From the NCBI GenBank assembly GCA_002897935.1, contig BDTA01000054.1, positions 1-39,605 on the forward strand: DNA of 39,605 nucleotides, given 5' to 3'. Within the stretch, counting starts at the first letter, position 1; each line of letters starts with the position of its first letter. This DNA is from a bacterium BMS3Abin08. GTDB taxonomy: Bacteria > Nitrospirota > Thermodesulfovibrionia > Thermodesulfovibrionales > JdFR-85. Positions 2,753 to 8,121 of the stretch are shown in pieces. The position numbers were made by a program, and so were the translations under genes. A model generated the notes under the pieces. It was not told the origin of the DNA. It saw only the letters and a list, made by a program, of their open reading frames with translations, and ran no database searches.

Positions 2753-3847
2753 ATGATTAAAAAACCCCTGATATTCCTTGGTGTAATCATTGTTCTCCTG
2801 TTAGGCATAGTTGCGACCACAGAGCACCTGAAAAGATCCGATGACCGTACACTCACCATAAGCGGCCGTGCCGAGGCCGATGAGATAATCCTATCCCCCC
2901 GGATCCCCGGAAGGTTGAAGGATGTCTTCATAAGGGACGGCATGGAGGTCAGGAAAGGCGAAAGGGTTGCAACCCTTTTTGACCGTGAGATAAGGGCGGG
3001 CAGGGATGAGATCAAAAACAGGCTGGATGCTTTTAAAGCAAGAATAAAGGCGGAAAAAGAAAACCTCGGTTACCTGAAAAAGAAGGTCCATGAAGACATC
3101 AGCGTGGCTCAAAGGACCCTGATTATCTCAAGGGCACGGAAGAAACAGGCGGAAGCAAAGAGGGACCGGGAGGAACTCCGCTACAGGAGGTACGAAACGC
3201 TCTTAAGGAGGGGGGTAATCCCCCGGGACAGGTTTGATTCCGTAACACTCTCATACAATCTTGCCCTGGAGGAATTTCAGATTGCAACTGAAGAGGTTAA
3301 AAGGGCTGAGACCATCCTTGCTAAGACTCGCCTCTCAAGATTACTTGTCAGGGCAAAGGAGCACGGAATAGAGGGCATGATGGCATCCCTTGATGCATTG
3401 GGAAAAAGCCTTGCCCGGATGGAGATACAACTGTCCTACACGGAAGTAACCGTTCCGCAGGACGGAGTGGTGCTTAGAAAGGTCTCCGAGCCCGGTGAGT
3501 TCCTCAACGCAGGCGGCGTGATCGGCGTGATGATTGATCCGGATACCCTCCATATCAAGACCTATCTGCCTGAACCCTACCTCGGTAAGGTCTCTCTCGG
3601 TACGCAGGTCGATGTCATCACCGATACCTATCCTGAAAGGCCCATAAGGGGCCTTATCTGCTATATCTCCGACGAGGCGGAGTTTACCCCCAAGGAGGTA
3701 CAGTCAAAGGTAGAGAGGGTCAAGGAGGTCTTTGCCATGAAGGTCTGCTTCGGAGAGGATAACGGGGAGGCTTATAAAATCCTGAAGAAAGGCATGCCTG
3801 TGGATGTAGTGATAAAAACCGCCGGCACACAGAACCCGGGGAAATGA
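2753..3847 (+). CDS. HlyD/EmrA-type periplasmic membrane fusion protein of an ABC exporter
   Basis: The protein has 364 residues: a single N-terminal membrane anchor (about 5-23), the first half of a lipoyl/barrel-sandwich domain (SPRIPGRLKDVFIRDGMEVRKGERVA, about 48-72), a long charged coiled-coil hairpin (about 80-200), the second lipoyl half (VTVPQDGVVLRKVSEPGEFLNAGG, about 230-256) and a beta-barrel (to about 335). This is the layout of YbhG/HlyD adaptors that bridge an inner-membrane ABC transporter to an outer-membrane channel. It overlaps the next gene by four bases (ATGA), so translation is coupled to the ATPase. Its substrate cannot be told from sequence. Confidence 0.92.
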   Translation: MIKKPLIFLGVIIVLLLGIVATTEHLKRSDDRTLTISGRAEADEIILSPRIPGRLKDVFIRDGMEVRKGERVATLFDREIRAGRDEIKNRLDAFKARIKAEKENLGYLKKKVHEDISVAQRTLIISRARKKQAEAKRDREELRYRRYETLLRRGVIPRDRFDSVTLSYNLALEEFQIATEEVKRAETILAKTRLSRLLVRAKEHGIEGMMASLDALGKSLARMEIQLSYTEVTVPQDGVVLRKVSEPGEFLNAGGVIGVMIDPDTLHIKTYLPEPYLGKVSLGTQVDVITDTYPERPIRGLICYISDEAEFTPKEVQSKVERVKEVFAMKVCFGEDNGEAYKILKKGMPVDVVIKTAGTQNPGK

Positions 3848-5580
3848 ATCATCCTTGTGCTGAAGACAAGACAAACCCCTCGGAAACACAGCCCGTCATA
3901 TCAATAAAAGGGGTTACAAAGCAATACAGGAAGACCACGGCATTAAGAGATATAGACCTCGACGTTTCCCCTTCTGAAATTACCGGTATTATCGGCCCTG
4001 ACGGGGCGGGAAAGAGTACCCTCCTCAAGATCTGTGCCGGTATTCTTAAGTACAGGGGGAGTGTTGTATTCCGGGGCAGGGAACTCTCTGAAAACCCGGA
4101 GAAGATAAAACCACACCTGGGATTCATGCCGCAGGGGATCGGGCAGAACCTCTACATGGATCTCACAGTGGAAGAAAACATCAGGTTCCTGGCAACCCTG
4201 AAGGCCGTACCGGGGGATGAGGTGAAAGAGAGGGAGGTAGAGCTCCTTCAGGCAACAGGACTGCTGCCCTTCAGGAAGAGGGCTGCCGGAAATCTCTCCG
4301 GGGGCATGAAACAGAAGCTGGGTATCTGCTGCGCACTGATATCCCTCCCCGAGATCCTTATACTCGATGAACCCTCCACAGGGATAGACCCCCTTTCAAG
4401 GCGACAGCTCTGGGAGATTCTGAATAAATACATTGCCACTCAGGGCACAACCATCCTCTTTGGCACCTCCTATATGGACGAGGCGGAAAAGTGTCATTCA
4501 ATAATGTTTCTCCAGCATGGCAGATGCCTTTACAGAGGACATCCGGAAGAGATAATGGACAGGGAGCCGGGACTTGAAGATGCCTTTTTCGAAAGACTCG
4601 TTGAGGCTGGTGAGCGTTTAAAAGAGGTGGAGATACCCCGCACCTGGAGGCTCGGCGCTGGCGAGGGGGATGTGGTGGTTGAAGGGGTAACAAAGAGGTT
4701 CGGTGATTTCACCGCCATCGACGGGGTCTCCCTTGAGGTGACACCCGGAGAGATATTCGGGCTCCTCGGCCCCAACGGCGCCGGGAAGACCACCCTTATT
4801 AAATGCATGATCGGGCTGCTGAGACCTGAAGAAGGGGAAATTCACCTCTCCGGACTCCTGCCGGGATCAAAGGATCTGAGCTACAGGATCGGGTACATGT
4901 CCCAGGTGTTCTCCCTTTACGGAGACCTGACGGTAATAGAGAATATAGAACTCTATGGGACCATCTACGGTATCAGGGGTGAGGTGCTCAAGGAGAGGGT
5001 GGTGTGGGTGATCGATTTCTCCGGCCTCAGGGGATATGAGACCACCGTAGTGGGGTCTCTTCCCCTTGGTATGAAACAGAGGCTTGCACTCGGCTGTGCA
5101 ACACTGCATCTGCCGGCCGTGCTCTTCCTTGACGAACCCACCTCCGGGGTGGATCCCGTCGCAAGGAGGATATTCTGGCAGTTCATAGGGAAGCTCTCGA
5201 AGGAACTCGGAATGACCGTGATCGTGACCACCCACAATCTTGTTGAGGCGGACTTCTGTGACAGGGTCGCAATCATGGATTCCGGGAGGATAATAGCCAC
5301 GGACAGGCCCGGCAGCCTGAAGGAGAAGTTCACAGAGGCTCAGGGCAATGTCTTTGAGGTTTATCCTGACGGGCGCTTGCCACGGGAATGGCTTTCCGAA
5401 AGATCAATCTCCGTGGTCCCCTACGGCAGGAGATACCGCCTCTGGAAGAAGGAACTGGATGAGGAAACAGTAAAGGATATCCTAAAAGCACATGGCATGG
5501 ACTATCACTACATAAAAAGGATACCTCCTCCAATGGAGGACGTCTTCGTCTATTATTTGCGGACTGTCGCCCAAATATGA
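3844..5580 (+). CDS. Double-ATPase ABC exporter protein (YbhF-like)
   Basis: The 578-residue protein carries two fused nucleotide-binding domains. Domain 1 (about 18-240) has Walker A GPDGAGKST (51-59), signature LSGGMKQKL (150-158) and Walker B LILDEPS. Domain 2 (about 275-510) has Walker A GPNGAGKTT (307-315) and Walker B LFLDEPT. The domains are unequal. Domain 1 has Ser in place of the H-loop histidine (FGTSYMDEAE). Domain 2 keeps His (VTTHN) but has LPLGMKQ instead of LSGGQ. In a head-to-tail pair this leaves one consensus and one degenerate ATP site. As I recall, E. coli YbhF shows the same pattern, so it is a family trait. The partners are the HlyD gene upstream and two permeases downstream. 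Confidence 0.93.
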   Translation: MNHPCAEDKTNPSETQPVISIKGVTKQYRKTTALRDIDLDVSPSEITGIIGPDGAGKSTLLKICAGILKYRGSVVFRGRELSENPEKIKPHLGFMPQGIGQNLYMDLTVEENIRFLATLKAVPGDEVKEREVELLQATGLLPFRKRAAGNLSGGMKQKLGICCALISLPEILILDEPSTGIDPLSRRQLWEILNKYIATQGTTILFGTSYMDEAEKCHSIMFLQHGRCLYRGHPEEIMDREPGLEDAFFERLVEAGERLKEVEIPRTWRLGAGEGDVVVEGVTKRFGDFTAIDGVSLEVTPGEIFGLLGPNGAGKTTLIKCMIGLLRPEEGEIHLSGLLPGSKDLSYRIGYMSQVFSLYGDLTVIENIELYGTIYGIRGEVLKERVVWVIDFSGLRGYETTVVGSLPLGMKQRLALGCATLHLPAVLFLDEPTSGVDPVARRIFWQFIGKLSKELGMTVIVTTHNLVEADFCDRVAIMDSGRIIATDRPGSLKEKFTEAQGNVFEVYPDGRLPREWLSERSISVVPYGRRYRLWKKELDEETVKDILKAHGMDYHYIKRIPPPMEDVFVYYLRTVAQI

Positions 5581-5882
5581 AAATGCCCTTACCGTCATTC
5601 CCGCTTGTCGGGAATCCTTCGACTTGTTCGAGATCACAAGAAAGATTCCGGACAAGCCGGAATGACGGAATAACGAAGGCTATGCGCTCTGCGCTTTGAA
5701 CGATTCCGGACAAGCCGGAATGACGGGACAAGCCGGAATGACGGGACAAGCCGGAATGACGGGACAAGCCGGAATGACGGGACAAGCCGGAATGACGGGA
5801 CAAGCCGGAATGACGGGACAAGCCGGAATGACGGAAGGTGAGGGAAATAGTGCCACATTCAGGCTGAGCTATTGAGAATAAC
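5581..5882. repeat. Repeat-filled gap inside the exporter operon
   Basis: This 302-bp stretch separates the ATPase gene from the permease genes and has no coding gene. It starts with core-repeat copies (5597-5680), includes TGCGCTCTGCGCTTTGAACG-type sequence also present near 14290 and 36763, and ends in a seven-copy 18-bp tandem array. The last 45 bp (about 5836-5880) hold only a weak GAGA before the permease ATG. Confidence 0.85.
5707..5832. repeat. Seven tandem copies of an 18-bp unit
   Basis: The unit GGGACAAGCCGGAATGAC occurs seven times without spacing, reading from the end of a normal core repeat at about 5701. It is an amplified half of the genome-wide dyad TTCCGGACAAGCCGGAA. Arrays of this kind usually vary in copy number between strains. 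Confidence 0.95.
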
Positions 5883-7007
5883 ATGAAGAGGATCAGAGCT
5901 ATAGCAATCAAGGAATTCAAGGAGATATGGCGAAACAGGCTGTTTCTCATTCTTGCCTTTATTGTGCCCTTTCTGATGTTTGTGGTCTTCGGCTACGGTA
6001 TCAGCCTCGATATCGAGAACATGCCCTCCTCATATATTGATCATGACGGAACCCGGCTCAGCAGGGACCTGGTCGATAGATTTATCGGAAGATATTTTAA
6101 ACTCACGCGTACGGTGTCGGACCTGAAAGAGGCCGAGAACCTCTTGAGAAAGGGGGCCTTGAGGGCGGTCCTTGTGATTCCCCCGGATTTTTCAAAAAAG
6201 ATCTACCGCGGGGAGACATCGGATGTTCAGGTCCTCATCGACGGCGGGTATCCGTATACATCCATTACAATAAAGGGTTATGCCGAGGCTATTGTGAGTT
6301 CATACAACCGGCGCCTTCTTAAAGAGCGGATCGAAAGGTCGGGTTCTCTCACTTCCCCGGTGCCGGTAAAGGCGCAAACAAGGTATCTCTTCAATGAATC
6401 GTTAAGGAGCAGCTATGCCCTCATCCCGGGTCTTATAGCGATAGTGCTGCTTATGAACCCGGCAGTGCTTACCGCTATAGCCGTTGCAAGGGAGAAGGAA
6501 TTCGGCACAATATACAATATCTATTCGACACCGGTTAAGAAGATCGAGTTCCTCCTTGGTAAGATCATCCCTTATCTCATTATCTCAACAATAAACTTTT
6601 TTGTCGTTGTAGCCACCGTGAAGGTGCTCTTTGCCATACCCATGAAGGGGAGCATCTTTGATCTGATTCCGCCGGCAATCGTCTATGTCCTCATTAACGT
6701 CTCCATCGGACTCCTGATATCATCGGTTACACGCACAGTTGTATCTGCTCAGATCGTTACACTTATTGTAACCATCATACCCGCATTCCTGTATTCCGGC
6801 CTCCTGATACCTGTATCCAACCTCGGTACGGAGGGCAAGGTGATGGCACACATATATCCCACCATGTACTTCATGGACGTAATCCACGGGGTCTATCTGA
6901 AAAGGCTTGGCCTCTTCCAGATGATGAAAGAAATGGGCATGTTAATACTGTACTTTATCCTGCTCTTTTCCTTCTCTGTAATGGTCTTTAAAAAGAGGGA
7001 GGGCTGA
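5883..7007 (+). CDS. ABC-2 type permease (YbhS/YbhR-like), first of two
   Basis: The protein has 374 residues. One N-terminal membrane helix (about 20-40) is followed by a large periplasmic region (about 45-180), then five helices in the C-terminal half (about 185-370). VAREKEFGTIYNIYSTPVKKIEFLLGK is the conserved cytoplasmic coupling segment of ABC-2 permeases, and ALIPGLIAIVLL begins the transmembrane block. It pairs with the similar permease that follows, so the transporter is probably a heterodimer served by the double ATPase. The start ATG has only a weak GAGA upstream. Confidence 0.92.
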   Translation: MKRIRAIAIKEFKEIWRNRLFLILAFIVPFLMFVVFGYGISLDIENMPSSYIDHDGTRLSRDLVDRFIGRYFKLTRTVSDLKEAENLLRKGALRAVLVIPPDFSKKIYRGETSDVQVLIDGGYPYTSITIKGYAEAIVSSYNRRLLKERIERSGSLTSPVPVKAQTRYLFNESLRSSYALIPGLIAIVLLMNPAVLTAIAVAREKEFGTIYNIYSTPVKKIEFLLGKIIPYLIISTINFFVVVATVKVLFAIPMKGSIFDLIPPAIVYVLINVSIGLLISSVTRTVVSAQIVTLIVTIIPAFLYSGLLIPVSNLGTEGKVMAHIYPTMYFMDVIHGVYLKRLGLFQMMKEMGMLILYFILLFSFSVMVFKKREG

Positions 7008-7008
7008 C

Positions 7009-8121
7009 ATCTGGAACCTTATTAAAAAAGAACTCCTCCATATACTCCGTGACAGGGGGCTGCTGATATTTGTCATCTATGCCTTCAGTCTCGATATATT
7101 CCTGGCTGCAAAGGGGTTTCAGCTCATTCCTGAGCATGTTTCCATAGCCGCATATGACGAAGACCACTCGGTGGAAAGCCGCGAACTTCTCAGCAGGATC
7201 CGGGAACCTGCCTTCAGCAAGCCGAGGATAATCAAAGACAGGGCGGAAATAGACCGTATAATGAACAACTCCGAGGCGATCCTTATACTCGATATCCCCA
7301 ACGGATTTGAACGGGATATCCACCGGGAGGGAACAACGGTTCAGGTACTTGTCGACGGATCGCAGAGCACGGCGGCCTACCTCAGTTCCGCCTACCTCGG
7401 AAAGATCATAAATGACTTCTCTCTTGAGAAGACCATCGAGGAAAATTACAGGAAAGGGTTAAGGTTTGAGGTGCCGGTTGAGTTAAGGAGCCGTATACTC
7501 TTCAACCCCGACGCACGTGACGACATATATGAGGGACTTATCGAGTTCTTTATGATGATAACCCTGGTCGGGATGATCCTCCCTGCAGCCATGCTTATCA
7601 GGGAGCGGGAGTATGGAACCATCGAGCAGATACTGATATCCCCACTCAGCATAGGGCGGTTAATCATCCTGAAGATCCTTGCTTCGATGCTCTTCCTCAT
7701 TTCGGTTATCGCTGCAAGCTATCTGCTCGTTCTGAAACTCTGGCTTGGATTGCCCTTAAAGGGAGGAATCACGGATTTTCTCGTTGTGACCCTGATCTTC
7801 CTCATCTCGACAACGGGGCTTGCCTTTATAATAGCATCAGTGGCAAGGAGGTTCAGCCAGATCGGGATGCTTACAATCGTTATCTTTGCCCCCATGCTTC
7901 TTCTGTCAGGCGGATGGGTGCCCCCGGAGGCCCTGCCTGACTGGCTAAGGGCTGCAACGAGGGTCTCCCCGCTCAAGCAGTTCATGGATATCGGGGTCAG
8001 CATACTTATAAGGGGGGCAACCATGGATATGCTTTCGCTAAAACTTGCCAAACTGTTTATCATAGGGGCCGCACTGATAGGCACCGGGGGACTGCTGTAT
8101 AAAAGGAAGGTCTTGAAATAA
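7009..8121 (+). CDS. ABC-2 type permease, second of two, with an apparent ATC start codon
   Basis: Reading from ATC at 7009 gives 370 residues, closely matching the 374-residue sibling in length and layout. The start reads (M)WNLIKKELLHILRDRG, then an N-terminal membrane helix, a periplasmic region, and four or five C-terminal helices with REREYGTIEQILISPLSIGRLIILK as the coupling segment. GAGGGAGGG at 6995-7003 is a good Shine-Dalgarno about five bases before the ATC, and the preceding gene stops at 7005-7007. No ATG, GTG or TTG occurs in frame between the stop at 6979-6981 and GTG 7171. Starting at 7171 would remove the first membrane helix. So the start is either a rare ATC codon or an ATG changed by mutation or sequencing error. 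Confidence 0.82.
   Translation: MWNLIKKELLHILRDRGLLIFVIYAFSLDIFLAAKGFQLIPEHVSIAAYDEDHSVESRELLSRIREPAFSKPRIIKDRAEIDRIMNNSEAILILDIPNGFERDIHREGTTVQVLVDGSQSTAAYLSSAYLGKIINDFSLEKTIEENYRKGLRFEVPVELRSRILFNPDARDDIYEGLIEFFMMITLVGMILPAAMLIREREYGTIEQILISPLSIGRLIILKILASMLFLISVIAASYLLVLKLWLGLPLKGGITDFLVVTLIFLISTTGLAFIIASVARRFSQIGMLTIVIFAPMLLLSGGWVPPEALPDWLRAATRVSPLKQFMDIGVSILIRGATMDMLSLKLAKLFIIGAALIGTGGLLYKRKVLK

Follow-up and report, generated by a model that had tools for sequence, protein, structure and literature searches.

Does the second of two adjacent ABC-2 type permease genes in this bacterium really begin with the codon ATC, as an earlier note on the same DNA proposed? The window, that is the whole stretch of 39,605 nucleotides that we analyzed, corresponds to contig 54 of a draft MAG that totals 2.6 Mb in 123 contigs, and the named relatives of the organism are uncultured Nitrospirota, one of them labelled Thermodesulfovibrio sp. 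Four consecutive genes on the forward strand are concerned. The first encodes a YbhG-like membrane fusion protein of the HlyD type (positions 2753-3847; PF13437), whose best NCBIfam model by E-value is PRK03598 (9e-41, under the cut-off), and the second an ABC ATPase that carries two nucleotide-binding domains (3844-5580; PF00005 in two stretches). They are followed by permease 1, which starts with ATG (5883-7007; PF12698, 1.8e-46), and by permease 2 (7009-8121; PF12698, 7.5e-29, and PF01061, 1.5e-20), which would count 370 amino acids if started at ATC. Permease 2 passes the PF12698 family profile with 101.3 bits versus a gathering score of 31.6, and its nearest full-length ortholog, in genome G003, is 71% identical.

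Judged by their sequences, the genes at 2753-8121 would constitute an efflux cassette resembling the YbhGFSR and RbbA-type systems. Indeed, the YbhG-YbhF-YbhS-YbhR exporter of E. coli (PMC7190983) and YhiI-RbbA-YhhJ share with this cassette an HlyD-type fusion protein, a double ATPase and two consecutive ABC-2 permeases. However, the permeases are here separate from the ATPase, and they score 125.5 and 335.5 bits with the RbbA equivalog model NF033858, far below its curated cut-off of 1050. The locus is also marked by repeats. The 302 bases between the ATPase and permease 1 (5581-5882) are mostly taken up by a dispersed repeat, GGACAAGCCGGAATGACGG, arranged in tandem; 32 exact copies of it were found in the 597 kb searched, and the corresponding gap measures -17 to 186 bases in relatives, and once 789. 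Members of this repeat family, as GTCATTCCGGCTTGTCCGGAATC or its complement, are again intergenic at positions 1-240 and 1190-1390 of the window, and those at the contig edge are in part arranged as nearly identical tandem units, each about 120 bases long.

The frame of permease 2 is closed at its upstream end by a TAA (6979-6981) and then runs uninterrupted from TGG 6982 as far as the stop codon TAA at 8119-8121. As the earlier note had read it, no ATG, GTG or TTG occurs in this frame before GTG 7171 (7171-7173). The ATC codon (7009-7011) is separated by the single base C7008 from the TGA stop of permease 1 (7005-7007), a tight coupling, and lies five bases after the Shine-Dalgarno sequence GAGGGAGGG (6995-7003), whose GGAGG core (6998-7002) stands six bases before it; the distances of one and five bases had been given correctly by the earlier note. 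The predicted pairing with the 16S tail amounts to -11.9 kcal/mol for ATC 7009 versus -1.0 kcal/mol for GTG 7171. A gene with an AUH start should display a ribosome-binding site at proper spacing and encode a conserved protein that is reachable from no canonical start, and permease 2 presents both features. RNA folding around the start showed nothing special (z 1.09).

The orthologous codon, whose comparison the earlier note had suggested, could be read in 14 orthologs with a readable N-terminus. It is ATG in ten of them, including the nearest one (G003), and GTG in two. The last two have an ATG slightly upstream, one codon earlier in one case and seven codons earlier in the other, so that all 14 possess a canonical start at or very near the position of ATC 7009. 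Since ATG or GTG stands exactly at this codon in 12 orthologs, the real start of permease 2 lies at codon 7009. A single ATG-to-ATC change, as had been assumed, is sufficient to account for the difference. In most orthologs, the stop codon of the upstream gene is found 0-6 nt before the start, and the tight coupling of stop and start thus appears to be conserved. The ATC itself is confined to a single genome, with no family member among the orthologs compared sharing it at the homologous codon; it does not show the conservation across related genomes that characterizes infC starts. In one relative (L036 in G002, 1121-1145), the homologous codon is GTC, and its role is taken over by the ATG located seven codons earlier, which is preceded by the same Shine-Dalgarno sequence; this is another route to the loss of the ancestral start.

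One could also assume that this species has a shortened permease 2 beginning at GTG 7171, which is after all the first canonical start in frame. Such a start would discard 54 codons (7009-7170), and nowhere is the protein better conserved than there. Indeed, the identity of these codons to ten relatives is 67-85%, versus 55-69% for the remaining residues, and it is the higher of the two values in all ten comparisons; with the nearest ortholog, it reaches 85% over codons 1-54 and 69% over the rest. Between codons 2-54 and those of the nearest relative, the differences number 4, 5 and 28 at the first, second and third codon positions, thus mostly at the third; counted by codon, 26 changes are synonymous and 7 nonsynonymous. 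Such a conserved N-terminal stretch is not due to chance. The AF2 model, which is moderate overall (mean pLDDT 65), places an interfacial helix at residues 2-14 and TM1 at residues 16-39, with pLDDT values in the low to mid 70s over most of their length; among PDB structures it matches an insect ABCH transporter best (E 6e-9), which supports the fold class only. A start at GTG 7171 would therefore be predicted to remove the first helix, as the earlier note had anticipated, and with it the interfacial helix and part of the outer domain. The GTG moreover has no Shine-Dalgarno sequence, as its pairing energy of -1.0 kcal/mol indicates, and no ortholog supports it, all of them beginning some 54 codons earlier. 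Because the preceding codons are the best conserved and the orthologs start at or near 7009, we do not regard GTG 7171 as the real start, and a shortened permease 2 is very improbable.

Another possibility would dispense with a start codon altogether. A +1 frameshift of the prfB type at GGC TGA C would fuse permease 1 to permease 2. An SD-like GGAGGG is found immediately 5' of TGA C, the facing ends of the two permeases are both predicted to be cytosolic, and prfB of this genome (L080 near 16970) retains its own programmed frameshift site CTT TGA (AGAGGTTGTCTTTGATG). However, re-pairing from GGC to GCU would be poor, and the SD adjoins the P-site codon rather than standing 3 nt ahead of it. 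The orthologs, furthermore, are separate genes with their own starts and a varied stop/start geometry. With GGC at the P site, an adjacent SD and an arrangement that is not conserved in orthologs, the site departs from the prfB type, and we consider such a fusion highly improbable.

We thus come back to ATC 7009 as the start, and to the question of whether the gene behind it is still expressed. The frame of permease 2 is intact over 370 codons, free of stops and frameshifts. It departs from otherwise invariant columns at two positions, a number equal to that of permease 1 and not exceeding that of most relatives. On these grounds, permease 2 appears to be intact and constrained, with no visible decay. 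Its protein is 2-4 points more distant from most other orthologs than is that of the nearest relative (G003), and this extra divergence would be compatible with a slight relaxation. A real disabling mutation would have abolished the start, leaving negligible amounts of permease 2 and an exporter that is dead or built of permease 1 only, decay having not yet accumulated. Supporting this idea, AUC is expected to be far weaker than AUG, since IF3 selects in vitro against weak third-base pairs (PMC10158994), and in Listeria the replacement of the ATG of rsbW by ATA or ATT lowers expression (PMC13068326). The slightly longer terminal branch of permease 2, as compared with that of the nearest relative, points in the same direction. 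On the other hand, the gene shows neither a stop, nor a frameshift, nor an excess of changes at conserved sites, and the strong Shine-Dalgarno sequence has been retained. A recent null mutation is in our opinion unlikely, although it comes first among the rivals, followed in falling order by an assembly error, the TGA C frameshift fusion and the GTG 7171 start.

The Listeria rsbW mutants offer a parallel: there too, a single-base change affects the start codon of the second of two closely linked genes. These mutants differ in that they arose under selection and their lowered expression was demonstrated, whereas for ATC 7009 it would be a prediction.

As it comes from one genome of the genus and from a MAG of 123 contigs, the base at 7011 may reflect a private mutation, or else a wrong consensus call. 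If the consensus were wrong, the organism would really have ATG, or GTG, at 7009. A single base of a draft assembly is involved, and the near relatives are all canonical at or near this codon. However, the prior for such an error is low: we estimate that consensus substitution errors alter the start codon of at most a few genes in 10^4, to be compared with the fixed non-canonical starts of 6 of 2265 conserved Listeria genes, somewhat under 0.3% (PMC13068326). The frame shows no other sign of error. Since real AUH starts would outnumber consensus errors at start codons, the rate of the latter being our own estimate, the sequence at 7009 is probably correct, and we hold an assembly error to be rather unlikely.

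Is ATC 7009 then part of a general relaxation of start usage? A codon-based screen for coding signal was applied to 557 kb of further sequence from this genome plus the window, 597 kb together, in which about 468 genes were called. Strong coding signal upstream of the first canonical start was found only for permease 2 and for prfB, which served as positive control with its frameshift site. The upstream score of permease 2 ranks second among the about 468 genes, and its signal sets in at the codon preceding ATC. N-terminal stretches that are short are easily missed by such a screen, and infC, whose first canonical codon is preceded by fewer than 20 codons, goes unnoticed. As only these two genes stand out, relaxed start usage does not seem to be general, and the ATC start of permease 2 looks like a single-gene event.

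The textbook start codon of infC is AUU. In this genome, infC, which encodes IF3, begins with ATA (G000:C58:60072-60557, reverse strand, L063; also L048-L064 and L113-L122). In each of the family's 15 readable genomes, this ATA stands behind GGAGGT with no plausible canonical alternative, and the same holds for seven readable genomes from other families of the order. Because infC begins with ATA, the lineage does use AUH starts, at a gene for which one would be anticipated. The earlier note had mentioned ATC and ATT starts as known in few genes, infC being the classic case; such starts do exist, and the infC codon is here ATA.

AUH initiation is indeed a rare but already known class of mechanism. 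E. coli and B. subtilis both start infC with AUU (PMC1805508), and ATC and ATT starts have been confirmed for rnhC and infC of Listeria, respectively (PMC13068326). According to E. coli work as cited in that study, ATC is functional as a start at a reduced rate. One clear case plus infC fits the Listeria figures. Both infC and Listeria rnhC share with permease 2 an AUH codon at a conserved start position and a good Shine-Dalgarno sequence. The infC case differs, since its start is conserved and is autoregulated by IF3 in E. coli, whereas the ATC described here belongs to a transporter gene and to one genome.

Altogether, codon 7009 marks the start of an intact permease 2. We think it likely that an ATG, or a GTG, stood there ancestrally and was changed to ATC in this genome, and that the gene is still weakly translated. 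The AUC would be read by initiator fMet-tRNA with reduced efficiency, helped by the strong Shine-Dalgarno sequence at good spacing, and ribosomes terminating at the permease 1 stop, one base upstream, could be delivered directly to it. Use of AUC would lower the output of permease 2 and may affect the ratio of the two permeases, and thereby their heterodimer. A bolder hypothesis would be that ATC has been fixed and selected as an IF3-sensitive brake on the permease 1 to permease 2 ratio, or that TGA C is recoded to give a fused pair; we give it little credence.

The conservation of an AUA start for infC across an order may merit a note. For annotation, gene callers that accept only ATG, GTG and TTG would place the start of permease 2 at GTG 7171, so that its first membrane helix is missing from the predicted protein. 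If the AUC start is real, permease 2 would offer a natural test of how far reinitiation and a strong Shine-Dalgarno sequence can offset a near-cognate start codon behind a coupled gene.
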